64,000 bases of DNA, from NCBI GenBank assembly GCA_019638775.1, contig JAHBTD010000002.1:744001-808000 (forward strand). The letters are read 5' to 3'. This document shows positions 1-18,400 of this stretch, piece by piece. The notes beneath the pieces were generated by a model, which had not been told where the DNA came from, ran no database searches, and saw only the letters and a list, made by a program, of their open reading frames with translations. The stretch is from Fimbriimonadaceae bacterium. Lineage in GTDB: Bacteria; Armatimonadota; Fimbriimonadia; Fimbriimonadales; Fimbriimonadaceae. Numbering within the stretch: position 1 is the stretch's first letter; each line of letters opens with the position of its first letter. The position numbers and the translations under genes were made by a program.

Positions 1-880
1 GCGTGGGCATAGCCGTGATGCCGTACTTTTGGGAGACGGCGGGCTGCTGGTCGACGTCGATCTTGAGGAAAACAAAGTTCTTGCTGTATTCCTGCTTGAA
101 ATCTTCGGTTTGCAGCACTTCACGATCGAGCAGTTTGCACGGGCCGCACCACGACGCCATGAAGTCGCAGAAGATTTTGCGTCCGCTTCGGGCCGCATCC
201 TTCATCGCTTCATCAAGGTCGTAATACCACTTAGCCGACATGCGCTGATCCATCGTAAGCTCTTGAGCGCCAGCGGGCGCCTTGAACGCATACATGGAGG
301 CATCGCCTGCCTTCGCGCCGATCTCGAAGGACTTGGTGTCCATAAGAACGGGCTTCTCCATATCCTTGTACTTGAGCTCAGCTTGTCGGACTGTGTTGTC
401 TTCCGAGTTGATGTACAGAGTCATGACCTTGCCGCCACCAAAAGTTGCCTCAACAGTGTTGAGAGTCATGCCTTTTCGGTTCTTGCTGCCAAGGCTCTTG
501 GAGCTTACGGGCTTAAGCGCCTTTTCGTCGAAGAACGGTGCCCAAACATTGAAGGCATCGTCGCTCATCACTTCGCTCAACAGAGCAGGTGTTTGAGCAT
601 CCTTGTAATAGGTGTTCGTCTTCTTGTCATATCGCGTGACGAACTTGCCATCAGCGACGATTGTCTCTGCCTGCGTTTCAATCCGGGCCAAGTTCGGCTT
701 TGAAAAGTCGATTGAATATTGGTTGGCCGTGCCGCCAAGAACCTGGAGGGTATAGGTTGCCTTCAGGGTCTGTGCCTCGGTCATTGCCTTGTTATAGCCG
801 CCCAGGAGCTGGCTGCCGCCTTGTGCAAGCGCCAACACGGCGATTGCCGCTACCCCAAGGGTCCATTTAAGCTTTCTCAT
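1..880 (-). CDS. Secreted LolA-like domain fused to thioredoxin domain (3' part outside window)
   Basis: Reading the minus strand from ATG at 880 gives 293 residues with no stop before the window edge, so the C-terminus is missing. Residues 1-20 form a signal peptide ending at a LALAQ region. About residues 25-190 resemble the LolA / DUF2092 lipoprotein-carrier fold (a beta-rich domain with phrases such as IETQAETIVADGKFVTRYD). From about residue 215 a thioredoxin-like domain follows, with a WCGPC active site near residue 245 and the cis-Pro motif AMPT at the edge. The thioredoxin part suggests a periplasmic disulfide oxidoreductase; the role of the carrier-like part is unknown. The combination is inferred from motifs only. 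Confidence 0.75.
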   Translation of the reverse strand, partial: MRKLKWTLGVAAIAVLALAQGGSQLLGGYNKAMTEAQTLKATYTLQVLGGTANQYSIDFSKPNLARIETQAETIVADGKFVTRYDKKTNTYYKDAQTPALLSEVMSDDAFNVWAPFFDEKALKPVSSKSLGSKNRKGMTLNTVEATFGGGKVMTLYINSEDNTVRQAELKYKDMEKPVLMDTKSFEIGAKAGDASMYAFKAPAGAQELTMDQRMSAKWYYDLDEAMKDAARSGRKIFCDFMASWCGPCKLLDREVLQTEDFKQEYSKNFVFLKIDVDQQPAVSQKYGITAMPT

Positions 881-1011
881 GATTTCTAGTTTCTCCCTCA
901 GAACCTGTCTGCGTCTCGGGCAACGAATACTGTTGCTTGACCACAATAATACATCAGGCCTAAACTGAATGACGTATACAGGCCATAGATCATTTTCAGG
1001 TTTTTACTATT

Positions 1012-2472
1012 ATGGACTGGAAACGCTGGCTAATTCTCATTTTGTTGTTTCACTTCGGGCTTGCTCTTGTTTATTCGACAATCACACCTTATCGAACTGC
1101 AGGAATATTAAGATTTCAAGGTGGCGCTCCCGCTCAGGACATCGGAGCACCCGACGAGCGTCAGCACGCGAACTATGTCCAGCATCTGCTCGACGGCAAA
1201 GGCTTCCCCGTTTTCAAACCAGGCAGCCCCGATCTCTACGAAACGTATCAGAGCCACCAGCCTCCTCTTTACTATCTGCTGTCCGCTGGAATCGCCAAGG
1301 TAACGGGCCAAACCGACGTCGAGGAGAGATCAACGGGTTTGGTTTTGAGAGGGCTGAACGCGCTTCTTGGCGCACTGGCGATAGCGGGCATCTTCTTCAT
1401 CGGACTTTGGGGATTTCGCAACGAGTCTATCGGGCTGCTGGCCGCTGCATTTGCTGCGCTCCTCTCGATGAATGTCGCGTTGAGCGCCGCCATCACCAAT
1501 GATGTTCTCCTCATCGCCCTGTGCACATGGGCCTTGGCACTTGGGGCTAGAGCATCAAGAGATGGCTGGACCCTTAGCTCAGGCTTGCTTGTTGGTCTGC
1601 TGGCAGGGTTGGCTCTGCTCACCAAGACGTCAGCAATAGCGCTTCTTCCGGCTCTTGCATGTTTGTTCTTGATTAGGCGAGATACTGGCAAGCTCAAGCT
1701 TGAAATCAAACCCTTAGCAGCCGCAGTTGGATTGATGATTGTCCTTGCGGCACCCTGGTGGGTGAGAAACCAAAATCTCTATGGCGACCCTCTAGCGATG
1801 AAGGCGTTCGATCAAGCCTTCACCGGGACAGCCAAACCAACCGATCTCATCGTATCCCAACTCATCCAAACGGATCCACGATTTAACGCAGCCGCTAGCC
1901 AAATCGTCGAATCCAAGCCCGACATCACACCGAGACAGCTTAATGAGGAGGTCGTTCGCAAAGAGGGATTGCCTGCTAGCGCAGTTTACGATTATACGAT
2001 ACGATGGACGGGCTGGTGGACGTTTAGGAGCTTCTTTGGAGTGTTCGGCTACATGGACATCTTCCTGCCTTCCCCGCTCTACGCGGTGCTGGGGTTGTGT
2101 CTCCTTGGATTACTCATCTCCAACATCCTTGGTCGAAGAAGGTCCGAGGTTCAGGAAGCTGCAATTGTGCGACTTGCCTTATCCGTTTTCTTCATCGTCG
2201 TTCTTTTGCTCTTCATCCGCTTCAATATCCAATACTTCCAGGCACAGGCAAGATATCTCCTGCCTGCGATTGCGTCTATCGCCATTGCCGTCGGCTGTGG
2301 GGTCACTGCGATTCCGAAGTTCAAGCAAACCCTCGCCCTTGGAGTCTTAGGAGCGATCATGATAGGATTGAACATCTATATCTTAACGACCCTTCCTTCG
2401 GAGTTTGAGAGACGGGTTCAAACTGCGACAGCGGGTCTATCGGGAACCGTTCTTTTGCGTCAGGACGTATAA
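1012..2472 (+). CDS. GT-C superfamily membrane glycosyltransferase (PMT/ArnT-like)
   Basis: A 486-residue polytopic protein with about ten hydrophobic segments. The first extracytoplasmic loop holds an acidic pair in GAPDERQHANY, followed by SHQPPLYYLL, both hallmarks of GT-C enzymes (GT39/ArnT/DUF2142 families) that use polyprenyl-phosphate sugars on the periplasmic side. The loop at about residues 240-330 (ending in WTGWWTFRSFFGVFGYMD) is the usual long periplasmic insertion. Substrate and acceptor cannot be read from the sequence. It lies just upstream of the secreted STN protein on the same strand, 28 bp apart, so they may share a transcript. Confidence 0.75.
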   Translation: MDWKRWLILILLFHFGLALVYSTITPYRTAGILRFQGGAPAQDIGAPDERQHANYVQHLLDGKGFPVFKPGSPDLYETYQSHQPPLYYLLSAGIAKVTGQTDVEERSTGLVLRGLNALLGALAIAGIFFIGLWGFRNESIGLLAAAFAALLSMNVALSAAITNDVLLIALCTWALALGARASRDGWTLSSGLLVGLLAGLALLTKTSAIALLPALACLFLIRRDTGKLKLEIKPLAAAVGLMIVLAAPWWVRNQNLYGDPLAMKAFDQAFTGTAKPTDLIVSQLIQTDPRFNAAASQIVESKPDITPRQLNEEVVRKEGLPASAVYDYTIRWTGWWTFRSFFGVFGYMDIFLPSPLYAVLGLCLLGLLISNILGRRRSEVQEAAIVRLALSVFFIVVLLLFIRFNIQYFQAQARYLLPAIASIAIAVGCGVTAIPKFKQTLALGVLGAIMIGLNIYILTTLPSEFERRVQTATAGLSGTVLLRQDV

Positions 2473-2500
2473 TCTACGAAAGGCTTCTTAGAGGCATGTT

Positions 2501-4828
2501 ATGAAAAAGCGCGTTGAACTTATCATTGCCGTACTGGCTCTCACGGGCGTTTGCTGGGCCCGCCCCGTGCAGGAAGACCCCCTGCAAAAGAAGATTACGT
2601 TCGCGGTACACGCGACCACGATGAAGAACTTAATGCCGATTCTCCAGAAAGAGACCGGCATTGCCTTTAACGTTACTCCGCAAACGGCAAATGATGTCCT
2701 GCTGGTGTCTGTCAAAGACGTCACAGTGCAGCAGCTCATGGAGAAAATCGCTCAAGCGAGCGACGCCGAATGGGTGAAGGATAGCACCGGCTATCGACTC
2801 AGTCGGTCGCAAGGTTTGTCCAACACGCAGGAGCGGAAGTATCTAAACGCACGAGCCGCAGCGATGACAGACGCCATTTCAAAGCTGAAGGCCCCTGCTG
2901 GTTCAACGAGCAGCGAAGCTAAGGGCGAGCAGATTGTCAGCTCGACCATGAAGATCGAGAACGAGAACGGTCTTCAAGAGTATCGACTTCCCCCACCGCC
3001 AAAGTTAGGGGAAACGCCGGTTGGAAGAGCGCTGATTGCCGTATTGAGTCGAATGAATGTAAACGACATTGCGGCTATGGGTGAAGGCACGCGAGTCGTT
3101 TACGCAAGCGCCCCAACAAGAGTTCAGCGAGCAATGCCGGGCGCAGCTTTGAGAGAGCTTCAGAATTTTGCCGCAGAGCATCAAGCATACGTGCTCAAAC
3201 AAAAGCAGGCCCAGACGGAAGTTATGCCAGGAAAGTTTCTTTTCTTGGGACCGGGAGGCCAGACCTCAAATGAGATCAAGGGAGGCATCAGCAAAATCCT
3301 TCTTGTCCTCCAGAGGTTTGAGGACAGCGATGACGTGCAAGCGCAGATTCTTGTGGCCGACCAGGAAGGCAACATCGCTGCTTCAGCGTCAACCATGATT
3401 TCTGGGCGAATCGAAGATAAATCGAAACCGCTAACAGTTGATAGCAGCGAAAAGCCGATAGAGCTCTCCGACGAAGCAAAACTTCATGCCCAATTGATGG
3501 GGACCACAGCTTCCAACGACAATGTGCACTTTACGTTCAGCAGCGGAGGCGGGGGGACGTTCGTTACGGAGGCTATCGGAATCAAGTTGGTCGAGTCAGA
3601 GCCGGCGCAGGGATTCCAGCCCAAAGTCAAACCAACCCCTGAGTTGCTCGCCAAGATCCTTGAACCTGAAAAATACGACCCCTTAAGCTTTGCCGTATCC
3701 GAGTTCCTTTCCGGAATGGCGAATGGTCAGAACATTGTGGCAAGCATTCCCGACTCGCTTTTAATCCCCCTTTCTCGTCGAGCGGTGATCAATACTCGAC
3801 CAACCGAACTCCGTAACATCCTTTCATCAACCTTGAAGATGGAAACTGAAACAAAAGATGGATGGATGGTCGTCACGCCACGATTCTCACCTCTTGCGAG
3901 ACTTGATCGGGCCGACAGGCTCCCGGCTGGACAATTATTGAGATCGGTTAAGAACCGCCCAACACTTCCACTCGATGAAGCCGCTGAATATGCGTCACGC
4001 CACGGCGCTCCCCTTCAGAGAGATGGGTTTGAGATTCCTTACTTGAATGTGGTGAACAAAACGGCTGGCGGCTACCTATCTGGGCAAAGCCCCTATAACT
4101 GGAATCTCCTTAAGCTTTACGGCTCGATGAACCCACAGCAGCGACGCGACATGCTCACCGCAGGTCGGGTGAGAGCCTCCAACCTCAATCCGTTCCAGAT
4201 GGGCATCCTTGACCGCATGGTCTATGACGATGTCTCCGGCCCGCGATACATCAATCCAAATCCACCAGCGCCTCCTCGCCAAGGAAAGAGTGAAGAAGCC
4301 GTGTTTGTCACTATGGCGAACCTCGGGGGTGGTATGTCCGGATTTATGGGAATGGGACCGACAAAGCTACTCGACGAAAGGACCGAGTTTATGCCGACCG
4401 GCGTTCCACGCGATGCGATGATCAATCTCAGCATCTCCAACGACGAAGGTGTGTATGCAAGCAACGCCGATGGTTCAGAATCTAAGTTCATGTCGGCTGA
4501 GGAGTATGCGATGCAAAGCTGGATCGCTTCTCAAGGCAACCTTCAAGGACCGGTTTCCATGCCGAAATACGAGAAGTTTGTTCCGGCGACCATGTCGCGA
4601 TTAAACTTTGAGTTCCTTTTCAGCCCGATCGCAGCGATGTCGCGCTCGCTTGAGGATAATCGGATCGAAGGCTCAGGAAGTCTCATGCAATATGAGCAAC
4701 TTCCAGCAACCTTCCGCGAGCGGGTTCAGAAGATGCTCGAAAATCTGAACTCTAAACCTGGGCGCGGGGGCGAAAATGTTAAAGTTACAGTTGGTGGAGG
4801 CGGCAATAAGCCGCCTCGCGTAAGTTAA
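2501..4828 (+). CDS. Secreted protein with N-terminal STN/secretin-N-like domain, otherwise unknown
   Basis: This 775-residue protein has a signal peptide (residues 1-21, ending CWARP) and then, at about residues 30-100, a beta-alpha-beta unit (ITFAVHATTMKNLMPILQ ... VSVKDVTVQQLMEKIAQ ... YRLSR) with the layout of STN/secretin-N domains. A second, weaker unit may lie near residues 405-470 (FLSGMANGQNIVASIPDSL ... ILSSTLKMETETKDGWMVV). The remaining sequence has Gly- and Pro-rich stretches and no recognised enzyme motif. No TonB-type barrel or secretin core is evident. It precedes an ECF sigma/anti-sigma pair whose anti-sigma also carries an STN-like domain, which suggests that the three act together. 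Function unknown. Confidence 0.7.
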   Translation: MKKRVELIIAVLALTGVCWARPVQEDPLQKKITFAVHATTMKNLMPILQKETGIAFNVTPQTANDVLLVSVKDVTVQQLMEKIAQASDAEWVKDSTGYRLSRSQGLSNTQERKYLNARAAAMTDAISKLKAPAGSTSSEAKGEQIVSSTMKIENENGLQEYRLPPPPKLGETPVGRALIAVLSRMNVNDIAAMGEGTRVVYASAPTRVQRAMPGAALRELQNFAAEHQAYVLKQKQAQTEVMPGKFLFLGPGGQTSNEIKGGISKILLVLQRFEDSDDVQAQILVADQEGNIAASASTMISGRIEDKSKPLTVDSSEKPIELSDEAKLHAQLMGTTASNDNVHFTFSSGGGGTFVTEAIGIKLVESEPAQGFQPKVKPTPELLAKILEPEKYDPLSFAVSEFLSGMANGQNIVASIPDSLLIPLSRRAVINTRPTELRNILSSTLKMETETKDGWMVVTPRFSPLARLDRADRLPAGQLLRSVKNRPTLPLDEAAEYASRHGAPLQRDGFEIPYLNVVNKTAGGYLSGQSPYNWNLLKLYGSMNPQQRRDMLTAGRVRASNLNPFQMGILDRMVYDDVSGPRYINPNPPAPPRQGKSEEAVFVTMANLGGGMSGFMGMGPTKLLDERTEFMPTGVPRDAMINLSISNDEGVYASNADGSESKFMSAEEYAMQSWIASQGNLQGPVSMPKYEKFVPATMSRLNFEFLFSPIAAMSRSLEDNRIEGSGSLMQYEQLPATFRERVQKMLENLNSKPGRGGENVKVTVGGGGNKPPRVS

Positions 4829-4874
4829 GCCAGGACTCGGTGACATGACCGAGAACCCCTGCGTCTAACAAAAG

Positions 4875-5435
4875 GTGGTGTCGGTCATTCTTGACAAATC
4901 AAGGACAGGCGGGTTCGACGAGGATCTCATTCTCGTCGAACGTTTTCTCGGTGGTGATAGCGACAGCTTCGAGTCGCTCTACACAAAGTACTTCGATAAG
5001 GTCTTCGCGATCGCGCGTGGCATTCTCTTTGACGTTGAAGAGGCTACAGACGCTGTGCAGGAGATTTTTACACTCGTCTATCGCAACCTTCATAAGTTCG
5101 ATAGAAGGGCGAAATTCAGCACCTGGCTCTTTCGGATTGCCGTTAATCGCAGCATTCAAGAAACGCGCAAGCAGAAGCACCGCCCCCGAACTACTGAGCT
5201 TGACGAAGCCATCGCTCAGAGCATTCAAGAATCGCCTATCAGCTCCGATCCAAGGGTGGAGACAGCGATGGCCCAACTGGTGCCACAGGATAGGGCGATC
5301 CTGATTCTCTTTTATTGGGAAGAGCTGTCCTTAAACGAAATCGCCGACAGCATCGGCTGCAACGCAAACGCCGCCAAAACACGGCTTTACAGGGCGCGGG
5401 AGCGCTTTCGAGCGCTTTACGAGGAGACCGAATGA
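4875..5435 (+). CDS. ECF-type RNA polymerase sigma factor
   Basis: A 186-residue sigma-70 of the extracytoplasmic-function class. Region 2 spans about residues 20-100, with the DAVQEIFTLVYRNLHKF and FSTWLFRIAVNR motifs of the -10-binding helix. Region 4 spans about 128-182 with a helix-turn-helix (LNEIADSIGCNANAAKTRLY). Two in-frame GTG codons (4875 and 4878) can serve as start; both follow AAAAGG. A short hairpin (CTCGGT/ACCGAG, 4836-4853) sits in the gap after the preceding gene. The stop overlaps the next gene's ATG by four bases, so sigma and anti-sigma are probably translationally coupled. Confidence 0.92.
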   Translation: MVSVILDKSRTGGFDEDLILVERFLGGDSDSFESLYTKYFDKVFAIARGILFDVEEATDAVQEIFTLVYRNLHKFDRRAKFSTWLFRIAVNRSIQETRKQKHRPRTTELDEAIAQSIQESPISSDPRVETAMAQLVPQDRAILILFYWEELSLNEIADSIGCNANAAKTRLYRARERFRALYEETE

Positions 5436-6235
5436 AAAAGATTCCGCCAGAAATCGACTCGCTGATGTGGGCTGTCGCCGAATCGGGCGACATGACAGCA
5501 GTCGAAAACTTTGAAGCGCGCTACCCCGTACACAAGTACGAATTGGGTAAGCGCCTTGCCATGGTACGGGCTCTAAAAAGTTCGAAGCCGGAGAACAGCG
5601 CCATTCTCACTCAGCGATTTCGGCCGACCCAGGCTCCCGTAAGGCTCACCCGACATCGGCTCAGTTGGGTCCCTGTTGCGGCATTACTTAGCGCCCTCGC
5701 ATCGGCAGCATTCTTTGGCGGGATGTACGTTTTTAACCCAAAAAGCGACAAGCCGAACACTTCTGCACCGGTGGCGACAACGGAAAGATTTGATGGCTCG
5801 GGCAACACGCTTGAATACCGCCAAAACACACCACCGACAACGAACGTTCAACCCAACCAACCAAACCTACAGACTCCTCCTCCCGTTCAAATGGAAGGAA
5901 GATACACCGTCAAGTTGGAAGATGTCGGCCTGGTGAGTGCTTTAGAAATGATCGGCCTTCAATGCAACGCCGATGTTCAGGTTGCACCTGGATTTGAAAA
6001 CCCGACGATAACCGTTGACTACAAGGACATGACGATTGGAGAGATCCTTGCCGATCTTGGGCAGAAGTTCGGCTTTACGCCGTTAAAGCAAGGCGGTCGT
6101 GAGTATCTCTTGATTCCAGCGGTTGATAAAAGCACAGCGCCAAAAGCCAGCGACTCAAGGGATGCTGGGAGCAATGTCGGAATAGACGCGCGTACTCGAC
6201 CCAATAATGGTCAACCCGATAGCGACGAAAACTGA
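5432..6235 (+). CDS. Membrane anti-sigma-like protein with C-terminal STN-like domain
   Basis: The ATG at 5432 overlaps the sigma stop (ATGA), and a start here gives 267 residues; an upstream in-frame start would lie inside the sigma gene and is unlikely. Residues 1-60 are a small cytoplasmic helical domain, residues 79-101 a transmembrane segment, 105-155 a Pro/Asn/Thr-rich linker, and 157-230 an STN-like unit (YTVKLEDVGLVSALEMIG ... ITVDYKDMTIGEILADLG ... LLIPA). The arrangement recalls FecR-type anti-sigma proteins, but no zinc-binding HxxxCxxC motif is present. By position and topology it should hold the adjacent sigma factor and sense a periplasmic partner. The anti-sigma role is inferred. 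Confidence 0.75.
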   Translation: MKKIPPEIDSLMWAVAESGDMTAVENFEARYPVHKYELGKRLAMVRALKSSKPENSAILTQRFRPTQAPVRLTRHRLSWVPVAALLSALASAAFFGGMYVFNPKSDKPNTSAPVATTERFDGSGNTLEYRQNTPPTTNVQPNQPNLQTPPPVQMEGRYTVKLEDVGLVSALEMIGLQCNADVQVAPGFENPTITVDYKDMTIGEILADLGQKFGFTPLKQGGREYLLIPAVDKSTAPKASDSRDAGSNVGIDARTRPNNGQPDSDEN

Positions 6236-6314
6236 CATTATTGCCGGAACGTTTGGTTCCTTCAAGACCGTCGCTACATCTAGGTTGCATAATTAGAGTT
6301 GCACCAGTGGGGTC

Positions 6315-7100
6315 ATGTACATGAAGAGAACACGTCATATCGGCTTTACGCTCATAGAGTTGCTTGTCGTCATCGCGATCATCGCCATCCTTGCTGCGAT
6401 CCTCTTTCCCGTGTTTGCACGAGCCAAGGAAGCCGCGCTTGTAACCCGAGCCATCGCTCAAATGCGACAACTCTCGATGGGCGTCATGATGTATGCGAAC
6501 GACTATGACGATTATTTTGTGCCGTGCTCTCTAAGAACCACAGACCCTTCTGTCGATCCCATTCTTTGGCCCTCGCTTACCAACCCCTACGTGAAAAACG
6601 AACAGCTCTTTGTAGCCCCGGGATCGGACGGAACCTTCGCCAGCAACTGGGCTAACCGCCGAAACCAATCGATTGGATATAACGAGGCGACATCGTATGA
6701 TCCCCTCGGCTGTGTGCAAGGTGCAGGTGGGCCAGGCTGTGAAGGCTTCACTTCAGCAGCTAACTTCTCGCAGGCTGACGAAAGCTCCCGAGTAGCTTTG
6801 TTCGCCACAACTCCGAACAAAACAACCGGCAACTACCGTGGCTATACTTTCAACCCTTACAATGGGCCAACGCATCCGAGTGATCCGCTAAAAGGGTTGC
6901 CGCTGATTTCCGACCGTGACCTGATCGTTGAGCTTACTGCTCTTACTCCAGCGCAGCTCAAGCCTATCTATTGCCGGTATCAGCGTACGGGCAAGGACGA
7001 CGGGCGAAGCCCAATGATCTTTGCGGACGGCCACACGAAGACATACTCGGCTGCTCACATGAACAGCTTTGAATCAGGCGTTATTTTCCGCTTCCGCTAA
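6315..7100 (+). CDS. Type II secretion/type IV pilin-like protein with prepilin leader
   Basis: A 261-residue protein with a class III prepilin leader: a short basic stretch (KRTRHIG) cleaved before F, then FTLIELLVVIAIIAILAAIL and FPVFARAKEAA, followed by a C-terminal domain of the H-X9-DG / DUF1559-like type ending with FADGHTK. ATG codons at 6315 and 6321 are both usable. Such proteins are numerous in Armatimonadota and Planctomycetes and are thought to be surface pseudopilins processed by a prepilin peptidase. A strong terminator follows at 7121-7158. Confidence 0.88.
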   Translation: MYMKRTRHIGFTLIELLVVIAIIAILAAILFPVFARAKEAALVTRAIAQMRQLSMGVMMYANDYDDYFVPCSLRTTDPSVDPILWPSLTNPYVKNEQLFVAPGSDGTFASNWANRRNQSIGYNEATSYDPLGCVQGAGGPGCEGFTSAANFSQADESSRVALFATTPNKTTGNYRGYTFNPYNGPTHPSDPLKGLPLISDRDLIVELTALTPAQLKPIYCRYQRTGKDDGRSPMIFADGHTKTYSAAHMNSFESGVIFRFR

Positions 7101-7120
7101 GTAGTCCGGCGTGTTACAAT

Positions 7121-7158
7121 GAATCGGGCCGCGAGAATTCTCGGCCCGATTCTTTTTT
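7121..7158 (+). terminator. Rho-independent terminator after the pilin-like gene
   Basis: An 11-bp perfect stem (GAATCGGGCCG with CGGCCCGATTC, 7121-7131 and 7142-7152) is followed by CTTTTTT-type run at 7151-7158. It ends the transcript from the pilin-like gene and rules out a start for the next gene upstream of it. Confidence 0.9.
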
Positions 7159-7235
7159 GCTGTTCAGAAGGGCAGATTTGTTCGTCTGTTGTAATGACGG
7201 ATATTCCCGGCAACGGCACGGAGACTTGGATCGGT

Positions 7236-7955
7236 ATGTTCAAAAGAAAGTCGGACGTTTTGGAAGTGATCGGCGAGAAATCGTTGCTCTTTGGCATCGG
7301 CGGGATCATTGCCCTGCTCATCGGCATGCTTTTCTACTACTATCAGCGCGAGGGCGGCACAATGATCGGCTTTGCCTGGGTGATGATGATCGCCGGAGTT
7401 GCTGGAATCTTATATGGAGCTTACACTGCTCTCCAGGCTCGCAAGGTCACGGGAATTAGAATCACCTGCGTCTACGATGAATGCAAAGCGAAGAACGAAT
7501 TCACTGAGTTCCCCACCGAAGACTTTCGATGTGTAAAGTGCAACCGACTGGTCCCTGTTCTCGACGGCAAAGTCCTGCCTGTAGAGCAAGTACGGTGCGG
7601 TTATTGCAACACGCTCAACTACTATAGCGAGAAGAACGACCTGCTTGTTTGCGAGAGTTGCGACCGTGAGATTCCCCTTTCCACGGGAGCTCAGCAGCGT
7701 CACGTTGCCCGCGCGTACGCCATCACCGACGACGAGCGGCTCTACGAGTTGGTTTTAGTTGCTCAAGGCAACAAGACGGAAGAGGTCATAGCGACCCTGC
7801 AAACGATGTTGGCCCTCAACCGAAATCAGGTGAAGAACATCCTCGAAGATCTGCCAGCCGTACTGCTTACCGGAATCCCGCGCAAGAAGGCAGAGTTGCT
7901 CTCTGCTCAGCTTGCAATCCACGACGCGGCGGCGGAATTTCACCCGTTGAGTTAG
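7236..7955 (+). CDS. Membrane protein with zinc-ribbon domain, function unknown
   Basis: From ATG 7236 the product has 239 residues. ATG 7194 is in frame as an alternative; earlier starts fall within the terminator. GGAG lies 12 bases before 7236. Two transmembrane helices (about residues 13-31 and 42-62) are followed by two CxxC pairs, CVKCN and CGYCN, plus CESCD, which make a zinc-ribbon-like cluster. The C-terminal 90 residues include a helical region (EEVIATLQTMLALNRNQVKNILEDLP) that resembles ribosomal L7/L12 C-terminal-like modules seen in other membrane proteins; that comparison is tentative. Gene function unknown. Confidence 0.7.
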   Translation: MFKRKSDVLEVIGEKSLLFGIGGIIALLIGMLFYYYQREGGTMIGFAWVMMIAGVAGILYGAYTALQARKVTGIRITCVYDECKAKNEFTEFPTEDFRCVKCNRLVPVLDGKVLPVEQVRCGYCNTLNYYSEKNDLLVCESCDREIPLSTGAQQRHVARAYAITDDERLYELVLVAQGNKTEEVIATLQTMLALNRNQVKNILEDLPAVLLTGIPRKKAELLSAQLAIHDAAAEFHPLS

Positions 7956-7971
7956 GCCTGTCCCGAGTTAA

Positions 7972-8478
7972 TCAATCCTCGATCGCCATATCGAGGATCC
8001 CTTCGGCAACATAAATTGGTGCGTCGAAGCGGACGGCGATTGCGATGGCATCGGACGGGCGGGCATCGATCTCAAACTCATCTTTACTCACCTTCAAATA
8101 AACCTTTGCGTAGTAGATGGCATTCCAAAGGTCATCGATCACCACCCGGTCAACATCTCCACCAACTCGATCAACGATCGTCTTAAAAAGATCGTGCGTC
8201 ATCGGGCGGTCTGGAACGGCGCCATCAAGTGGAAGGCTGATCGCCTGCGCTTCAAACGGGCCGATCACGATAGGCAAGCGCCGACGTCCGTCGGTGACCA
8301 AGACAAATCGCGTGGTCTGACCGTTTGTCTCTGAGGCAAAAACGCCGTCGATCTGCACCTGAATGAGTTTGCCCAAGGAGCCTGGCTCCCGGACATGCTC
8401 ATTGAAGTCGACCGGAAAGAATGGCGGTGGCTCAGAGAAATCGCCTTGATCGTCAGACGGTTCGCGCTCGTCGGCCAT
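7972..8478 (-). CDS. Bifunctional nuclease family (DUF151/BFN) protein
   Basis: A 168-residue protein. Residues about 35-165 match the BFN domain: LVTDGRRRLPIVIGPFEAQAI near the start, the PMTHDLFKTIVDRVG segment, and the highly conserved IDARPSDAIAIAVR followed by APIYVAEGIL. The family is known for DNase/RNase activity in plants and is also found beside UvrB/C-type domains in bacteria. An acidic, Pro-rich N-terminus (EPSDDQGDFSEPPPFF) is unusual in length. It is transcribed toward and convergent with the preceding gene, 16 bp apart. Confidence 0.88.
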   Translation of the reverse strand: MADEREPSDDQGDFSEPPPFFPVDFNEHVREPGSLGKLIQVQIDGVFASETNGQTTRFVLVTDGRRRLPIVIGPFEAQAISLPLDGAVPDRPMTHDLFKTIVDRVGGDVDRVVIDDLWNAIYYAKVYLKVSKDEFEIDARPSDAIAIAVRFDAPIYVAEGILDMAIED

Positions 8479-8497
8479 ACCCTTACGATACCCCCGC

Positions 8498-9724
8498 CTA
8501 GCCGATGGTTACCCACACCAAGCGTCGGATCACCTTGCTTCCGACCTTTGCCTCAAGTCGGAAAGGAAAGGTTCCAGCCGTGTCTTTGGGGATGCGGACC
8601 TCAAAAACCCGACGAGAGCTTCCGCGTGCATTGGCGATAAAGAAGTCGGTGTCTTGGCCACTTTGAACATCCCAGCCCTCAGGCACGTACACGTGGAATC
8701 TTCCTTCAACGCGATCCTGTGTATTCGACTTGACGTAACAGGAGAACTTCGCCACGACGTCGATATTGTTAACCGAGCGACGCGCTGGCTGAACCAGATC
8801 GAACTCGACGACCGGCGCGACCTCCCAGGAGGTTTTAAGAACAGCCGACTGCCCCGTTTGATCCGTGACGATGACTCGCAACAATCGATACCCCTCTGTC
8901 GAAGTAGCCGGAACGGTGGTCTCATAGTCCACGAATGCGCGTCCCTTGTTATCAAACCTTGGGAATGGCTTCTCAAAGGTCAGCGCTTCGTCTCTGCCAA
9001 ATCCTTCAGTTCGCATACCGATCATCTTTAACCCCAGATCGTTGGTACCGTTGAACGTCACTCGGATGCGATAATTCGATGCCGGGCTTGTGGTTCTTGT
9101 AATCACCTGGACGTTCCACTTCATGCCGCCGGGCACGTTCGAGCCTCGGTTGTAAGTGAGCTCGACCGGCGTCATGATCCGGGGAGTAAGCGCCTCGCCC
9201 TCCGTATTCGCCGCAACGGTGTCTACCCGCACACCAATCGTCTTGCCGTTATCCGCAGGAAGCGAGTCGTCGCCGGGATCCTCCACCGACGTTTCTACAA
9301 ACCAACCGCCTTCGGTCGGTTGTGATGCCACTTGAACAGTGAGCCGGTATCTCTCGTCGTCGGTCCAGGTCGGTGCGTTGGGATTTGATGCATCAAGCAC
9401 CCGAACTTTGACAACCGGCTTACCCTCAACTATCCCAACCCGGATTTCAAGGTTGTCCTTCCCTACCAGCCAACCGTTGTTCTTGAAATCATAACTGACG
9501 ACAGCCGTATCGCCTTCCGCGACCAAACATGCCGCATAAAGCCGATCCGGCTCCCACTGCATATACGAGCCTCGCGCCAGCTCATCCCACTCCTCAACGT
9601 CCAGCTTGCCGTCGATCTTTGGCGTGAGCGCAAGGCGTTGTGTTTCCACAACTTGCATGGGTGTTGAAAAGCTATCCTGTCCGGGGAGAGCAAGGAATAC
9701 GAGGGCCGGCAAAAACGACAGCAT
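8498..9724 (-). CDS. Secreted protein with CBM9-like domain
   Basis: A 408-residue protein with a short signal peptide (MLSFLPALVFLALPGQ). Residues about 30-190 contain the CBM9/DOMON-like opening LTPKIDGKLDVEEWDELARG and DNLEIRVG, a fold that binds sugars or haem in other families. About 200-400 hold two beta-sandwich segments (ATSTEGYRLLRVIVTDQTG; VYVPEGWDVQSGQDTDFF) resembling NEW3/Ig-like modules. No catalytic motif is visible. It could be a surface carbohydrate-binding protein, but the ligand is unknown. The next gene downstream is the DUF151 protein, 19 bp away on the same strand. Confidence 0.7.
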   Translation of the reverse strand: MLSFLPALVFLALPGQDSFSTPMQVVETQRLALTPKIDGKLDVEEWDELARGSYMQWEPDRLYAACLVAEGDTAVVSYDFKNNGWLVGKDNLEIRVGIVEGKPVVKVRVLDASNPNAPTWTDDERYRLTVQVASQPTEGGWFVETSVEDPGDDSLPADNGKTIGVRVDTVAANTEGEALTPRIMTPVELTYNRGSNVPGGMKWNVQVITRTTSPASNYRIRVTFNGTNDLGLKMIGMRTEGFGRDEALTFEKPFPRFDNKGRAFVDYETTVPATSTEGYRLLRVIVTDQTGQSAVLKTSWEVAPVVEFDLVQPARRSVNNIDVVAKFSCYVKSNTQDRVEGRFHVYVPEGWDVQSGQDTDFFIANARGSSRRVFEVRIPKDTAGTFPFRLEAKVGSKVIRRLVWVTIG

Positions 9725-9764
9725 AACGCCATTATAGACGTCTCTTTGAGTCTGTTCGATGCGG

Positions 9765-10316
9765 TCAGTTTGCTCGCCCTAGGGCTTCCTCAAACGCTTC
9801 CTTGGTCAGGTAGGTCTGAACGGCATCCATATACCTTCCCCGTCGCCAATATCGCGCCGGAATCACCCCTGCCTGCACATAGCCGACCTTCGCCTGCATC
9901 TTCTCTGACCCGATATTTCCAACGAAAAACTCAGACATCAGCATTCGCAACCCCAACACGTCAAATGCATAGCGGGCACGAGTTCGGGCGGCATCCGTTC
10001 CGTATCCCCTTCCCCACTCTTCCCGCTCGCCAATAAGCGTTCCTGTAACGGCAGTCTTGTGCATGTGGCTGATCTGATGCAGTCCACTGTTGCCGATGTG
10101 CCGCCCGTCAAGCGTCTCGATGGCGAACATGATGTCGTTATCCCTTCCGGCGCATACGGCGTCGAACCAGTTCTTCTCGGCAAGGCGCGTCATGGGGTGC
10201 TCGGGATGAGCCAAGTACTCGGTGATCTCCGGATCGTTGATCCAACGGAGACAGTTCTCAAAGTGCTTTTCATAGTCCAGAGGGACGAGCTGGATTTTTT
10301 GACCTTGCCAAGCCAT
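9765..10316 (-). CDS. GNAT-family N-acetyltransferase (RimJ/RimL-like)
   Basis: A 183-residue acetyltransferase. The acetyl-CoA binding region shows as GREEWGRGYGTDAARTRARYAFDVLGL (the Q/RxxGxG/A variant is RGYGT), after the beta-strand IGNSGLHQISHMHKTAVTGTLIG and before LRMLMSEFFVGNIGSEKMQAKVGY, typical of ribosomal-protein-alanine acetyltransferase relatives. Substrate cannot be predicted. Its start is about 90 bp from a decayed RHS fragment on the same strand. Confidence 0.88.
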   Translation of the reverse strand: MAWQGQKIQLVPLDYEKHFENCLRWINDPEITEYLAHPEHPMTRLAEKNWFDAVCAGRDNDIMFAIETLDGRHIGNSGLHQISHMHKTAVTGTLIGEREEWGRGYGTDAARTRARYAFDVLGLRMLMSEFFVGNIGSEKMQAKVGYVQAGVIPARYWRRGRYMDAVQTYLTKEAFEEALGRAN

Positions 10317-10404
10317 GTGTTATTGTAACTGGAAGTTATGAGTGTGGCGCGGCTTGTGTCTTGGCCTTTTCCGCCCCACCCATCTCTGCCTATCCTAAGC
10401 ATGG

Positions 10405-10636
10405 AGAGTTTCACCCTGGGATCAGTGACAGTGCTGACATAGCTCAAGCCGTTGAGCGCAATGGTCACTGTGTTGGCGTTGCTGTCCTGGATGTTCGTCA
10501 TGTAGCCGGAGCTGTTGAAGTTCAGCTTCACCCCGTGCTTGGTCGTGAACGTCCACGTCCCGTTGCCGTTGAGGACACGTGTGTCCAAGATGCCCGCCCG
10601 CCTCGGCAAACGCCATGTCGCTACCGTCGTGATATC
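10405..10636 (-). pseudogene. Decayed RHS-repeat fragment
   Basis: Translations of this minus-strand stretch align with residues about 225-305 of the full-length RHS protein encoded at 14046-17939. Matching phrases are NGNGTWTFTTKHGVKLNF versus NTNGTWELKSKSGIKYLF, and NANTVTIALNG, shared by both. The first part (DGSDMAFAEAGG) lies in a different frame from the rest (ILDTRVLNGNGTW), so there is a frameshift near 10595. Similarity stops after VTDP near 10405. There is no start or toxin tail. It is a relic of an RHS gene and probably not expressed as protein. Confidence 0.8.
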
Positions 10637-10674
10637 AGAAGAAGGCCTCAGGACTGTAGCCGTTCGCTAACATC

Positions 10675-10905
10675 TCAATAATCAGAATCATTCCACCAAC
10701 GGTTAAAAGCAATCATTCCCATAATAACTAAGACTCCCGTAATCAACCATCCAAATCCATACTTTATTGCTCCCGTGCCCGAGTTAAGCGTAACATTGAC
10801 AAATGTCGTGTGCCCCTCATATAGAGTTATAGCACCTCTTAAAAAGCAAAAAATAGCTACAAAGAGAAGAGGGATGATCACATGCCATTTGGAAAGCTCA
10901 TTCAC
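10675..10905 (-). CDS. Small two-helix membrane protein in the RHS locus
   Basis: A 76-residue product with two hydrophobic helices, about residues 8-28 (VIIPLLFVAIFCFLRG) and 48-66 (FGWLITGVLVIMGMIAF). Its start overlaps the end of the lipoprotein gene by eight bases, so the pair is probably co-translated. AT-rich relative to the flanks. No family is recognised. Given its place directly after an orphan RHS toxin tail and a lipoprotein, an immunity or accessory role is possible but not shown. Confidence 0.6.
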   Translation of the reverse strand: MNELSKWHVIIPLLFVAIFCFLRGAITLYEGHTTFVNVTLNSGTGAIKYGFGWLITGVLVIMGMIAFNRWWNDSDY

Positions 10906-11386
10906 GTACGTAAAACACTCCTCTAATGATTTCTAATTGATCTTCTGACAGGCTTGAATCATTTGAGTTCACTCCAATTACCTCAAGGACTGAATCATTC
11001 ATGAATAAAACAGTATGTGCTATATGCCCTTTATAGGTCGTCGACAGATGTACTATCTCAGAGCCTTGATCCGAGGCAGACTTAGACTCAATTATATCAG
11101 TTGCTGTTCGATCATTATCCTTAAGATACTCCCTCAGCACTATTTCGCGTTGCTCTAGTGTCTTCGCCGGCATATCAATCAGACAAAACTGAAGAGTCCA
11201 GCCATGCCCTGCTTTGTTCTTTTTCAAACGCACAAGCTCCATATCATTAGAAATAGATGCCTCAATGCTATCATCATAGGGAATTCTCCAATTTCCCATA
11301 GCAAACGTCTGAATAGGCTGCCCCTCTTGCTTTGAGGCGCAGCCTATCAAAAACAGCATCACCGATAACAACCAAACGCTTTTCAT
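10898..11386 (-). CDS. Lipoprotein, candidate immunity protein for orphan RHS tail
   Basis: A 162-residue protein with a lipoprotein signal (VMLFLIGCASK, Cys at about residue 15), so it should be anchored in a membrane. The mature part has alternating strands and one helix (KTLEQREIVLREYLKDN) and no recognised family. Its ATG overlaps the stop of the orphan RHS gene by one base (TAATG), and its own stop overlaps the next small membrane gene. This tight coupling is typical of toxin-immunity pairs, and a membrane-anchored immunity protein would fit a toxin acting in the envelope. That role is an inference. Confidence 0.65.
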   Translation of the reverse strand: MKSVWLLSVMLFLIGCASKQEGQPIQTFAMGNWRIPYDDSIEASISNDMELVRLKKNKAGHGWTLQFCLIDMPAKTLEQREIVLREYLKDNDRTATDIIESKSASDQGSEIVHLSTTYKGHIAHTVLFMNDSVLEVIGVNSNDSSLSEDQLEIIRGVFYVRE

Positions 11387-12882
11387 TATCTTCTTAACCG
11401 ATCGCTCTCTACATATCTTCTCCTGTAAGATTCGCCTGCATCCCCTTCTAACCCATCATTGTTTCCGTCATAAAATTGATTATCAATCAAATCTTCGATT
11501 CGAGCCTTATGATTCGCGACTGGAGGTACACCCTGCGCACCCGTTGCTCCAGCACTCATTAGTGTCCATCCTGCTCCGCCAACAACGGCCGGTCCTCCGG
11601 GAACTCCCGCAGTCAAGCCCTCACCAGTTGCAGTCTGTACTAAACTCAGTCCGACATCATCTCTCAGATTTGGCTCTTTGTGTTCATTATCTCCTGGCCA
11701 TATTTCATCGTTTGGATTGTTCTCATTCGCAGTAGTGTACTCAAAGAAAGGCCTCCTATTTTGCAGTCCATACTCTGTCTCATATGCCATAATCCAGGAG
11801 TAAAGTAAACGACGTACGTAAAGACCATTAGGATCGGAAAAAATCAATGGATTATTTTCACAATAACTGTACCAATTCCTTCCATCCTTAATCGGATCCC
11901 TCGTCAGAAATCTCCCCGTACTCGGATCGTAGTACCGATGCCCAAGGAGCTTGTATCCGTGGTCCCCGTCCTCCTGATATCCGAACCCGCCTGCATAGCC
12001 GAACGGGCCGTTCCAGGTTCCACTGGAGGAGGTTAGATTTCCAAAGGCGTCGTATTGGCGCGTGGCACCGACAGTCTGGCTAGTCGTCCCCTGAGCCTCG
12101 GCGTTCTTGATGCCCGAGTGCATATATGTGGTCGTGCTTGAGCTTCGTTCAGAGACTCCCGGCGTGTAGACGGCCGAGCCGTCGCCAACGACAGGAGCCG
12201 TTACCCCAACACCGTCCCGCTTAAATGTAAAAGAGCCTGACGAGTCCGTCTTGGAGACCCGTGTGTCAAGTCCATAATACGAGAAGGAATTGGTCGTCAC
12301 GCCGGATCGGGTGATGCTGGTGATGCGATTCTCATAGTCATAGGCAAAGTTCGTTGCTGTACCGCCGTAGGTTATGGCTGTGGTTCTGCCCGCCGAGTCG
12401 TAGCTGTAAGACTTCGTCGTATTGCCGCCGACCGTGATACTCGTCAGCTTGTCGGCATTGTCGTAGTTGTAGCTTTCCGTGACGCTGTTAACCGTGCGCG
12501 TGGCACGGTTTCCATTGGCATCGTAAGTGTACGAGCCCGAGTAGCCAGTTCTGGATTCGGAAAGCAGCTGGTCGATGTCGTCGTAAGTGTAGGTCGTCGT
12601 TAGGCTGTCTTTTGTGTGCGTGAGCACGTTAGAGTTGTTGTCGTATGTGTACGACTGGCTCATAAGAGTTGCGTTGGATGAGTTCTTCAGCGAGATCGCC
12701 GTCACACGGGACATGGAGTCGTAGGTGAAGTCCTCGTACTGCCCGCTGTGAAGCGTGCGCTTCGTCAGCCGCGAAAGGTCGTCATACTCAAAGGTTGTAG
12801 ACTCGCCATAGCCGTTCTCAAGCTCGGTAAGCCGGGACAACGCGTCATAGGTATAAGTTGTGGTCAAGGAGCCGCCGACCAT
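11386..12882 (-). CDS. Orphan RHS core with variable C-terminal tail (5'-truncated RHS)
   Basis: A 498-residue product made of YD/RHS repeats from its first residues and lacking signal peptide and N-terminal domains. Its core (to about residue 335, through GHRYYDPSTGRFLTRDP, YCENNP and DPNGLY) is nearly the same as residues about 780-1135 of the full-length neighbour; long blocks of DNA match exactly, and similarity continues upstream to about 12900. The last 150 residues (after DPNGLY) are unrelated to the neighbour's tail and match no toxin family I recognise. It looks like a silent tail cassette that could be joined to the full-length gene by recombination. No ribosome-binding site is obvious at the first ATG. 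Confidence 0.75.
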   Translation of the reverse strand: MVGGSLTTTYTYDALSRLTELENGYGESTTFEYDDLSRLTKRTLHSGQYEDFTYDSMSRVTAISLKNSSNATLMSQSYTYDNNSNVLTHTKDSLTTTYTYDDIDQLLSESRTGYSGSYTYDANGNRATRTVNSVTESYNYDNADKLTSITVGGNTTKSYSYDSAGRTTAITYGGTATNFAYDYENRITSITRSGVTTNSFSYYGLDTRVSKTDSSGSFTFKRDGVGVTAPVVGDGSAVYTPGVSERSSSTTTYMHSGIKNAEAQGTTSQTVGATRQYDAFGNLTSSSGTWNGPFGYAGGFGYQEDGDHGYKLLGHRYYDPSTGRFLTRDPIKDGRNWYSYCENNPLIFSDPNGLYVRRLLYSWIMAYETEYGLQNRRPFFEYTTANENNPNDEIWPGDNEHKEPNLRDDVGLSLVQTATGEGLTAGVPGGPAVVGGAGWTLMSAGATGAQGVPPVANHKARIEDLIDNQFYDGNNDGLEGDAGESYRRRYVESDRLRR

Positions 12883-12992
12883 CGTCGCGCGGTCGCGGTC
12901 GTGGTGAAGGATAATAATGCTTGCGGATTGACTTAGTGATGATACTTGTATAGATTAAAAGCTGTGAAATGGTAATTGATCTCAAATAACAC

Positions 12993-13988
12993 TCATCTAT
13001 TTAATCTAATATAAGAAGGCGCATATGCACTATCCGCACCAAATTTTAAAGCATCCTTTGGGAATGCCATTAACCAACGCTTCTCAGGCCAATCTATGAG
13101 GTAAAAATGTTCAGGGGCGAAATTCTTAAGATTGATTTCGTTTGAATTTACAATAAAACCTGGCAATCCTCGCTTTTCAAAGAATAGGAGAACTTGAGGT
13201 CCTGTTGTGTATGCCCACCGCCCGTAATCATTTCCAGGCCAATCAAAGTCGTGTTGTGTTGGGATGTAGTTCCAGAGGAAATCCCAGCTCACACGACCTT
13301 GGGGTAGATCATATTCGGGAATATAAAGTCCACGTTCTATGAGTTGGTTCATAATCCACTTGTGCAAATAATTCATTTTTCGTGCAGAGATTGTCTCAAA
13401 AGTGCTAACGGCTGAATTTAAATACAATGATGCTGTATCTGCAGACGTGATCTGAGGCTTTATTCTTAGGAGTCTCCGATCAATTGACTGAGATAGCGAG
13501 TGAGGCAATTTAATACGTTCATTTGGAGCTATCTTCCATGGCCCGAAACCTTCATGATCAATGGCCCAGATACAATTTAGATCAGGCCATGGCAAAAGAT
13601 ATAGATCCGAACTTGAAATATTGGCAGAAGAAAGTGATTTGGTATCAACAATACGAGCTCCGCGAATAGGATTTTCATCTATTAGGACTAATTTATCAAA
13701 GCGAAGAATATCCTTCTTGAAATCTTCCCAGTCTGTGAATCGAGGCAATTCGGATGGAAAGTAATTCCATAAGTAGTCATTTCCTTTGCCATGCATCAAA
13801 GGCACTGTTGGTATCCATGGCATTGATTTATTTAGCATCTTTTGGAAATATTGTCTAAGTGCCATGGCGGATTCGCTGTCAAATTCTCTTAAGGAACTGT
13901 TTCCTATACATACGTTTAGTATCGATGACGTGGCGTTAGACAGCTCTTTGCAAATGATATCGCTGTAGGTTAGTTTTGATACATTCAT
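12993..13988 (-). CDS. Protein with two tandem related domains, candidate RHS immunity protein
   Basis: A 331-residue AT-rich gene directly downstream of the full-length RHS gene (58 bp away). The product is an internal duplication. Residues about 41-150 and 203-313 align, sharing phrases such as DYLWNYFPSE / DFLWNYIPTQ and LYLLPWPDLNCIWAID / FYLIDWPEKRWLMAFP. No signal peptide, membrane helix or known motif is seen, so it should be cytosolic. Position after the toxin tail, low GC and absence of paralogues in the window fit an immunity protein of the SMI1/SUKH style, but its family is not recognised. A 16-bp hairpin lies just before the start. Confidence 0.65.
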   Translation of the reverse strand: MNVSKLTYSDIICKELSNATSSILNVCIGNSSLREFDSESAMALRQYFQKMLNKSMPWIPTVPLMHGKGNDYLWNYFPSELPRFTDWEDFKKDILRFDKLVLIDENPIRGARIVDTKSLSSANISSSDLYLLPWPDLNCIWAIDHEGFGPWKIAPNERIKLPHSLSQSIDRRLLRIKPQITSADTASLYLNSAVSTFETISARKMNYLHKWIMNQLIERGLYIPEYDLPQGRVSWDFLWNYIPTQHDFDWPGNDYGRWAYTTGPQVLLFFEKRGLPGFIVNSNEINLKNFAPEHFYLIDWPEKRWLMAFPKDALKFGADSAYAPSYIRLNR

Positions 13989-13999
13989 AATATATACAT

Positions 14000-14035
14000 G
14001 ATAGCAGTTTTTCTCAGATGAGAAAAACTGCTATC
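14000..14035 (-). terminator. Long hairpin between RHS gene and downstream gene
   Basis: A perfect 16-bp inverted repeat (14000-14015 and 14020-14035, arms beginning GATAGCAG, with a four-base loop). It follows the RHS stop by ten bases and ends 11 bases before the next start. No long T-run follows on the minus strand, so it may be a processing or attenuation element rather than a full terminator. Confidence 0.6.
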
Positions 14036-14045
14036 TTGCCGTAAG

Positions 14046-17000
14046 TTAGAGCTTTTCGACTGGATCATCGAAAAAGCCGGGGTCTAATCCAGCTCTACCT
14101 CCATTAGTCCAGCCTCCGTAACCATATGCTGCTGCACCAACTGCTGGGTCTATGGCTGCACCGAGACCTTGCCCTGCCATGCCAGGATCTCTGAGAGCGA
14201 TTCCTCCTCCAAAGGCTAGGATACCGTTCCAAGGACTACTCCCCTTTCGCTTAATGGCATTCTCTCGCCAATTCTCCCAGCCTGGGGCAAACCTTTCTGC
14301 AGCATCGTCCGCGTAAGCATAGGTCGTCAGGTGAGGATGCGTATATTTGTCAGGGCCTTGACCATCGCCAATATGGTAATGTGGCGGCCCGCCATTGTGA
14401 CCATATTCATCGAATCTAAGCTTGGTCTTGCGTCCATACAACTCACGTGCAGCATCCTTGAGTTCTTTGTTAGTGGGAAATATCCAATAGGTAAGTTTCT
14501 TGCCATTGTGAAGTATCTCTTTCTCCCACCATAGACCCGTCGGATCCAACTGACTCACTGGATTGTTCCCGCAGTATCCATACCAATTCCTGCCATCCTT
14601 AACAGGATCCCGCGTCAGGAATCTTCCTGTGCTGGAATCGTAGTAACGGTGTCCAAGGAGTTTGTACCCGTGGTCCCCGTCCTCCTGGTACCCGAACCCG
14701 CCCGCATATCCGAAGGGTCCACTCCAGGAACCGGAAGAGGAGGTCAGGTTGCCGAAGGCGTCGTACTGGCGGGTTGCGCCAACGGTCTGGCTTGTCGTTC
14801 CTTGTGCTTCGGCGTTCTTGATGCCCGAGTGGATATATGTGGTCGTGCTGGACCGGCGTTCGGAAACTCCCGCCGTATAGACAGCCGAGCCGTCGCCAAC
14901 CACCGGAGCCGTGACTCCCACACCATCTCGCTTAAATGTAAAAGAGCCTGACGAGTCCGTCTTGGAGACCCGTGTGTCCATTCCATTATACGAGAAGGAG
15001 TTGGTCGTGACACCAGATCGCGTAATGCTCGTGATGCGGTTCTCATAGTCGTAGGCAAAGTTCGTGGCCGTACCGCCGTAGGTTATGGCCGTTGTTCTGC
15101 CCGCCGAGTCGTAGCTGTAAGACTTCGTCGTATTGCCGCCAACCGTGATACTCGTCAGCTTGTCAGCACTGTCGTAGTTGTACGTCTCCGTAGTCCCGCC
15201 CAACGCCTTTGTCGCCCGGTTTCCGTTCGCATCATAAGTGTAGGTGCAGGAATATCCAGTGCGCACCTCGGTCAGGAGCTGGTCGATGTCGTCGTAGGTG
15301 TAGGTCGTCGTTAGGCTGTCTTTGGTGTGCGTGAGCACGTTGGAACCGTTGTCGTAAGTGTACGACTGGCTCATCAAAGCCGCGTTCGACGAGTTCTTGA
15401 GCGAGATCGCCGTCACCCGAGACATGGAGTCGTAGGTGAAGTCTTCGTACTGCCCGCTGCTGAGCGTGCGCTTGGTCGTTCGCCCAAGAGCGTCGTACTG
15501 GAAGCTGGTCGTTTCGCTATACCCGTTCACCACCGAAGTGAGCTGAGAGAGCGAGTTATAGTTATAGGTCGTGGTCAAGGAGCCGTCGACCATCGTCGCC
15601 CGGCGGCCCAGAGTGTCATACGTGTAGCTCAGGTTGCCCTGCGGCGTGCTCAAGGCCGTCAACTCCGAAGCCGCGTTGTACGTCCAGCCGGTCGTGCCGC
15701 TGCCGTCCACCATTTGAGTCCGGCGATCGCCATTATCGTAGGTGAATGTCGTGTCGGTCCCTGTGGGGTAATCGACTGTGGTTAGCCGTCCCGCATCGTC
15801 GAAAACGTAAGCGATGGTTTCGCTCAGCGGGTTCGTGTAGGCGCTTGTTTGCCCGTTGGCATTGTAGGACCAGCTCTCCACCGAAGAGTCGGGCATGGTG
15901 AGCGAAGTTACTTCTCCACGGCTGTTGTAAGCATAGGTGCGCGTGTAGCTGCGTCCGTTAGTGATGCTCGTCAGCCAGCTATTGCTGTTGTAAGCAAAGG
16001 TGTGGGCCTCGCTCTTCGCATTGGTCGAGGAAGTGTTCCTTCCCGCTGCGTCGTAGACCATCGTCGAGGTCTTGCCACGCTCGTTGGTCGCAGAAGTCAC
16101 GTGCCCTTCGTTGTCGTAGACAGCGCTTGTCGTCGTGCTGTCGATGTTCGTCATCGTCACGCTGCGCATCCAGTTGTCGTAAGTGACGCTTGCTGTTTGG
16201 CTCAGTGCATTGGTCACCGACGTGATCCGGTTCAGTCCGTTGTACGCAGCTGTGGTTGAGTTGCTTGCCGGATCCGACACGCTGGTTACGTTTCCGTGGC
16301 TGTCGTAGCCGATCGTCGTTGTGTTGTTCTGCGCGTCTTTGGTCGTGTAGAGCTGTCCGTACGCGTCATACGTGTTCGTTACCGACGTGCGGTTCAGAGG
16401 ATCCACCACCGTCAGCAAGTTTCCTGTTGAGCTGTAAGTCATCGTCGTGACATTGCTCAAAGGATCGGTGATTGTCAGGGGCTGGCTAAACGCCGAATTG
16501 TACGTGATGGTCGTCGTGTGGTTCAGAGGATTCTTCGCCGTGAGCACGTTGCCCTTGCTGTCGTAGGTATACGTCCAGACCTTGCCTCTGCGGTCGGTGT
16601 GGGTCAAAACGTTCCTGTTCGTGTCGTAAGTGTAAGCGTCGCTGTAGGTTGCCGGGTCGACTTCCGAAGCAAGCAGCCCGCTAGAGTAGTTGTGGGTGAT
16701 GGTCTGGCTGCCGGGCAGGGTGATGACCGTGTTGGTCGAATTGTAAGTGTAAGTCGTCGAGTTCGAAAGCGGGTCTGCCCATGCAGTCTGTCGCTGGGTC
16801 GAATCGTAGGTGTTCGTCCAGGTATTGCCGCGCAGGTCCACTTCCGAAGTGATGTCGTGAGTGCTGTTGTAGCCGTAGGTCCGCGTCGGGGTCGTGCTGT
16901 TGATGGTTGGGTACGTGACGCCCGTCAAGTCCCCGCCGCTGCTGTAGGCAAAGCTCCACTCACGACTAAGCGGGTCGGTTATTGTCGAGACCCGTCCGTT

Positions 17001-17939: not shown

Positions 17940-18281
17940 GACCTGGTTTATATCACAGGTTCTTCAAAACACCAAGGCTATTCTTGCAAAATAATCAAAT
18001 AAGTACAAAGATTAATTGTTACAACTTACAATTTCGTTACGGGCCAATAACGTATTTACTCCAGAATTTTTAGATGGGCCATGAGTTCAAAGAACGAGCC
18101 GAGGGAGACATTTTGAACTCATAAGAGCAATTTCCTCCCCTTTCTACCGACTTCACAATGAGCGGAGAGAAATATCTTGCCCTGTAGTTTCAGGCACCAT
18201 TTGTTGCAATACATGCGCAGATCCATGATCCAAGTAACGAAGTTCGCACTGATCAGCTATTTGTGCAGTTCACATATATAA

Positions 18282-18305: not shown

Positions 18306-18400
18306 ATGATTAGATTTATATAGAATCATTTTAGAGTGAATGTTTCTCGCGGCAATCATTTGTTTGTCATCGACAATAGTTGAGTCATTGGAATGGCATT

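Follow-up and report, generated by a model that had tools for sequence, protein, structure and literature searches.

The window (the whole stretch of DNA analysed here, 64,000 nucleotides) contains a gene pair coding for an ECF sigma factor and a membrane-bound anti-sigma factor. We propose, with moderate confidence, that this pair constitutes an autoregulated module of the cell-surface-signalling type, in which the periplasmic sensor consists of an STN unit only and no TonB receptor participates. This proposal is based on the co-encoding and conservation of the pair, the transmembrane helix and STN fold of the anti-sigma factor, a conserved promoter upstream of the pair and a matching site upstream of a neighboring pilin-like gene. 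Coordinates refer to the window, and all features are located on its forward strand unless otherwise indicated.

Architecture of the sigma/anti-sigma pair

The sigma gene (4875–5435) codes for an ordinary ECF protein of 186 amino acids containing Pfam regions 2 and 4 (Sigma70_r2, E 1.6e-15; r4_2, E 8e-13), and it is followed by the anti-sigma gene (5432–6235), whose ATG at 5432 overlaps the TGA stop codon of the sigma gene. This generates the four-base overlap ATGA that had been reported in the preliminary description, which also proposed that the anti-sigma factor had one helix and a periplasmic STN-like unit. Both elements were recovered in an AlphaFold2 model based on the alignment of 41 orthologues. 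The modeled protein starts with a three-helix cytoplasmic domain (residues 6–18, 21–30, and 32–50), followed by a single transmembrane helix (residues ~80–100; 5669–5731), a Pro-rich linker without strands and of low confidence (residues 101–150), and a compact beta-alpha-beta-beta-alpha-beta-beta domain (residues 158–229; 5903–6118; pLDDT ~94–98). Positive charges flank the transmembrane helix on its N-terminal side, and the N-terminus is therefore predicted to be inside the cell. The orthologue alignment revealed a conserved N-terminal signature, DxLMWxxAExxDPxAxxxFxxRYPxxRxELxxRxxMV. The second protein would inhibit the first.

When the window proteins were analyzed singly, Pfam and NCBIfam did not call an STN domain on either the anti-sigma factor or the secreted protein encoded upstream of the sigma factor (P0001; see below), and consequently profiles and folds were used. 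Pfam STN was touched by four of the 41 anti-sigma orthologues (best E 0.003), being the most recurrent family there; a PDB profile search matched the unit to the N0 domain of GspD/XcpQ (E 0.01), and the top Foldseek match was the N0 domain of PilQ. In structure comparisons the closest protein was the FecR-type anti-sigma factor BDI_1681 (4m0n; Z 10.9, rmsd 1.8 over 73), followed by FoxA (Z 10.6), PilQ N0 (10.2), PupR (10.1), and FecA (8.8). The STN assignment of the preliminary description was borne out at the level of orthologues, profiles and folds, and not by Pfam on the single proteins. On the basis of the model we are confident in assigning residues 158–229 to the STN/N0 fold, with FecR-type anti-sigma factors, FoxA and secretins as nearest relatives. 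The FecR Pfam family was absent in all 41 anti-sigma members at E values up to 1, and neither this search nor the model revealed an all-beta juxtamembrane FecR subdomain between the transmembrane helix and the STN unit.

At the beginning of the sigma coding sequence (4913–4941) there is a 13-pair inverted repeat, GTTCGACGAGGAT-CTC-ATTCTCGTCGAAC, followed by a short T-rich stretch; it could be a chance product of the codons for FDEDLILVE.

Conservation of the pair, its promoter and a probable target gene

The sigma gene was located directly before the anti-sigma gene in all 41 loci, which come from two families of the same bacterial order (40 detected by script and one recovered separately). 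Full-length matches to the anti-sigma profile occurred throughout families f1 and f5 of the order, while those in other families of the phylum were mainly to the C-terminal STN unit, in other proteins. Several genes recurred around the pair. Upstream, a homologue of the PMT_2-type membrane glycosyltransferase (1012–2472; Pfam PMT_2, E 5e-13) was found in 22 of the 41 loci. A gene for a prepilin-like protein (6315–7100; Pfam N_methyl, E 2e-8) followed the anti-sigma gene directly in 14 loci, and a homologue of a membrane protein with a Cys-rich part (7119–7955; no Pfam hit) was present downstream in 21. The latter was often followed by an open reading frame of ~1100 amino acids, which in L233, where it was tested, corresponded to a membrane pyrophosphatase. 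The full order of glycosyltransferase, STN protein, sigma factor, anti-sigma factor and pilin-like gene was observed in two genomes assembled as a single contig (G007 and G010). A MAG labeled as Fimbriimonas ginsengisoli contained one sigma orthologue (64% identical, using the sigma factor as query) and showed the pair and its promoter without the STN protein and without the pilin-like gene.

Upstream of the sigma gene, a predicted promoter of the form GTGAC-N17-CGTCTAA was identified (4840–4868; window sequence GTGACATGACCGAGAACCCCTGCGTCTAA). The pattern GT[A/G]AC-N17/18-CGTC-NAA was present before the sigma gene in 34 of 38 loci at a near-constant distance, with a spacing of 17–18 in 33 of them, and it had five matches genome-wide. 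The shorter AAC-N17/18-CGTC preceded the sigma gene in 24 of the 38 loci, in comparison to ~0.7 in shuffled sequences. Since the operon has its own conserved promoter in 34 of the 38 loci, it is very likely that the sigma/anti-sigma operon is autoregulated.

A candidate ECF promoter, GGAAC-N18-CGTC, was also located upstream of the pilin-like gene (6246–6272), with sites in orthologous positions: AAC-N18-CGTC was detected before the adjacent pilin-like gene in 8 of 14 loci, the shuffled mean being 0.15 and the maximum 2 in 200 runs. Based on this difference, the adjacent pilin-like gene is probably a target of the sigma factor, in support of the control suggested for it in the preliminary description. 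Both sites have a similar spacing and differ in their -35 elements (GTAAC/GTGAC in the sigma site versus GAAC in the pilin site). GGAAC-N17/18-CGTC was discarded as a genome-wide regulon motif, since 69 sites were found versus 104 in a reversed control, and the GTAAC version showed no genome-wide enrichment either. Control of many prepilin-like genes by the sigma factor was equally discarded, as only 2 of the 30 examined in the genome of the window carry such a site; the regulon therefore looks small and local. The differing -35 elements and the lack of genome-wide enrichment of GGAAC-N17/18-CGTC, together with the adjacency of P0001 in only 7 of the 41 loci, were counted against the proposed module.

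The secreted STN protein and other candidate partners

P0001 (2501–4828), a protein of 775 amino acids, carries a Sec-type signal peptide and, near its N-terminus, an STN unit (residues ~30–102; 2588–2806), so that its early description as a secreted protein with an STN-like unit was borne out. Its AlphaFold2 model (pLDDT 82.5 and pTM 0.82 overall; ~97 in the STN unit) showed an anti-sigma-like fold at residues 31–101, with Z scores of 8.8 to PupR and 8.2 to 4m0n and PilQ N0. The comparison of both STN units that had been suggested at that stage gave an hhalign probability of 97.3% (E 2.2e-11, 80 columns), with control pairs at 8% or below, which indicates that the STN units of the anti-sigma factor and P0001 are homologous. 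A possible second STN unit at residues 380–466 was rejected (hhalign only 7.7%). The remaining ~670 residues gave no clear match in Pfam or among the listed fold matches, and a TolA/TonB-like C-terminal domain was likewise absent from Pfam and from the fold matches listed.

The preliminary description had considered the three genes as a signaling group. In the relatives the sigma/anti-sigma pair was constant and the STN protein was not, since a P0001-type gene was located directly before the sigma gene in only 7 of the 41 loci. Moreover, the adjacent members belong to different branches of a multi-copy family: they are not monophyletic on the tree (5 label changes), and a single origin of the adjacency was rejected (AU test, p 0.002), the branches of the tree being long. 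Two genomes carrying the pair essentially lack the family. In G019 it was absent by profile search, and in G009 a single match of 64 positions was found inside a 1022-amino-acid frame, which is more likely to be the STN segment of a secretin. Because the pair is maintained in these genomes, P0001 should be regarded as an optional partner candidate and not as a defining part of the module; its role as a signal partner is plausible. Among the ~10 P0001 paralogues of the genome of the window, five are arranged in tandem (L220:4489–15747, contig C3 of G000), with no sigma gene beside the array. Small proteins of ~220–410 amino acids with one or two STN-like units were also observed in many relatives (L194–L208), and no sigma gene was recognized near them.

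It is possible, though not the outcome we expect, that P0001 is an output or an incidental neighbor instead of an input, being one of many secreted paralogues that is here perhaps transcribed by the sigma factor. The number of paralogues, the mixed origin of the adjacent members and the low frequency of adjacency would agree with this, as would a weak ECF-type candidate promoter before the gene, GGAACC-N-CGTATAAT (2443–2473). This site was seen in the window only: none of the other sigma-adjacent homologues is preceded by it, which ruled it out as a general promoter of P0001-type genes. In addition, P0001-type genes from unrelated branches occur recurrently between the glycosyltransferase and the sigma gene, far above chance (we estimate ~0.1 adjacencies over 41 genomes, for ~10 genes in some 3000), and the first domain of P0001 is homologous to the sensor domain of the anti-sigma factor. 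That such genes have come to lie at the same locus more than once speaks for a functional connection.

Another reading, which we consider unlikely, leaves P0001 outside the relay: the input would be a secretin of a type IV pilus or a type II secretion system, whose state the anti-sigma STN unit would sense at the N0 domains, and the module would match expression of the prepilin-like gene to this machine. Several observations point in this direction, namely that sequence and Foldseek searches of the anti-sigma unit reached the N0 domains of GspD and PilQ first, that the genome codes for secretin-like proteins with STN/N0 domains (L001 and L002), that the probable target gene is pilin-like, and that the pair persists where the P0001 family is essentially absent. 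However, no secretin gene was recognized beside the module in the 41 loci, and the structure is equally close to FecR-type anti-sigma factors (Z 10.9), a likeness of fold that says nothing about function. Finally, it is quite improbable that the STN unit serves only for self-association or as a structural element, with the anti-sigma factor sensing membrane or periplasmic stress alone and having no STN partner: secretin STN domains form oligomers (PMC11637429) and no obligatory partner gene was found, but nothing argues positively for it, and the STN units of known anti-sigma factors work through that of a partner.

TonB receptors were also considered as partners. The preliminary description had noted neither a TonB receptor nor a barrel; no TonB receptor was seen among the open reading frames examined in the window (1–14000), and none was found in the neighboring genes that were labeled or Pfam-scanned in the 41 loci. 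A Plug domain was present in only 21 of 85 family genomes; G007, G010, G032, and G167 had no Plug hits, and the Plug-free genomes included single-contig ones carrying the module. Seven Plug hits were detected elsewhere in the assembly of the window (G000), all on small contigs. Among the small contigs carrying TonB-receptor genes (C14, C30, C41, C66, and C67), the first four were tested and showed a GC content of ~0.60 and a tetranucleotide correlation to the window of 0.73–0.78, versus 0.92–0.95 for the main contigs. These four are probably contaminants of the assembly, and since they look foreign, TonB receptors can likely be dismissed as hidden partners in it. Judged from these genomes, a TonB receptor would not be an obligatory part of the module, and the term receptor-less holds at the family level.

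Comparison with known systems and proposed mechanism

The module resembles the FecI/FecR/FecA type in that an ECF sigma factor is co-encoded with a single-pass anti-sigma factor that, like FecR, PupR, and FoxR (Z 10.9 to 4m0n and 10.1 to PupR), has a cytoplasmic anti-sigma domain, one transmembrane helix and a C-terminal STN subdomain. In contrast to those systems, no TonB-dependent outer membrane transducer with an STN extension (FecA, PupB, FoxA) was found, and the Pro-rich linker occupies the place of the all-beta juxtamembrane subdomain. Secretin N0 domains (PilQ, GspD/XcpQ) share fold and weak sequence likeness with both STN units; unlike in secretins, no secretin channel domain was found in either protein. 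A barrel-less STN system has been described in Pseudomonas aeruginosa, VreA-VreI-VreR (PUMA3), which is linked to secretion genes and likewise comprises an ECF sigma factor, a membrane anti-sigma factor and a secreted N-terminal-STN protein without a beta-barrel (PMC2729926). Such a protein was located next to the sigma gene in 7 of our 41 loci. VreA is small (23 kDa) and has a TolA/TonB-like C-terminal domain, whereas P0001 has 775 amino acids and gave no clear match beyond its STN unit; a further difference from the Vre system is that the anti-sigma factor has no recognizable FecR juxtamembrane subdomain. A receptor-less relay therefore has a precedent in VreA, and the earlier statement that it would be new was too strong. 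The module is a case of cell-surface signaling that is new in its STN-only anti-sigma factor, lacking both the juxtamembrane subdomain and a TonB receptor; no paper on such modules in Armatimonadota was found.

In the Fox system, the signaling domain of the receptor binds the anti-sigma factor before the signal, probably by STN-STN contact; the STN domain of FoxA is predicted to touch that of FoxR, and the FoxA signaling domain shields FoxR from proteolysis (PMC11637429). By analogy, in the cell-surface-signalling model proposed here the anti-sigma factor would hold the sigma factor at the inner membrane, and a periplasmic STN-STN contact would protect or stabilize it. Loss or change of this contact would leave the anti-sigma factor open to proteolysis, and the freed sigma factor would then transcribe both the operon to which it belongs and the prepilin-like gene. 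As partner, the adjoining STN-bearing secreted protein would be the best candidate in this genome and in six relatives; in other genomes a P0001 paralogue may act in trans, or a secretin of a pilus or secretion system may take this role with its N0 domain. The STN subdomain of PupR alone does not bind its partner, both the juxtamembrane and STN subdomains being needed (PMC7186176), and the juxtamembrane subdomain, which is not recognizable here, is the main structural difference and also the main doubt. A wider proposal, advanced only tentatively, is that the order (presumably Fimbriimonadales) uses a family of soluble periplasmic STN proteins as interchangeable transducers in place of TonB receptors. 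They would all dock on a single STN-only anti-sigma factor and thereby direct the expression of pilin-like surface genes, and one or another of the paralogues would have come to lie next to the sigma gene on repeated occasions. If so, STN-mediated transmembrane signaling would require neither TonB receptors nor the FecR juxtamembrane domain, it would extend to a little-studied phylum, and one of many prepilin-like genes would be given a regulator.

Two further observations were made. In a genome from another family of the phylum (L209:4455–6671, G255), an ECF sigma gene is followed by a gene for a 508-amino-acid protein ending in an anti-sigma-like STN unit, possibly an independent STN anti-sigma factor. 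Within the window, positions 10000–20000 showed a tetranucleotide correlation of 0.777, versus 0.91–0.96 in the rest; this stretch of odd composition, which includes an RHS-repeat protein gene on the reverse strand (11386–12882), is possibly a foreign island.
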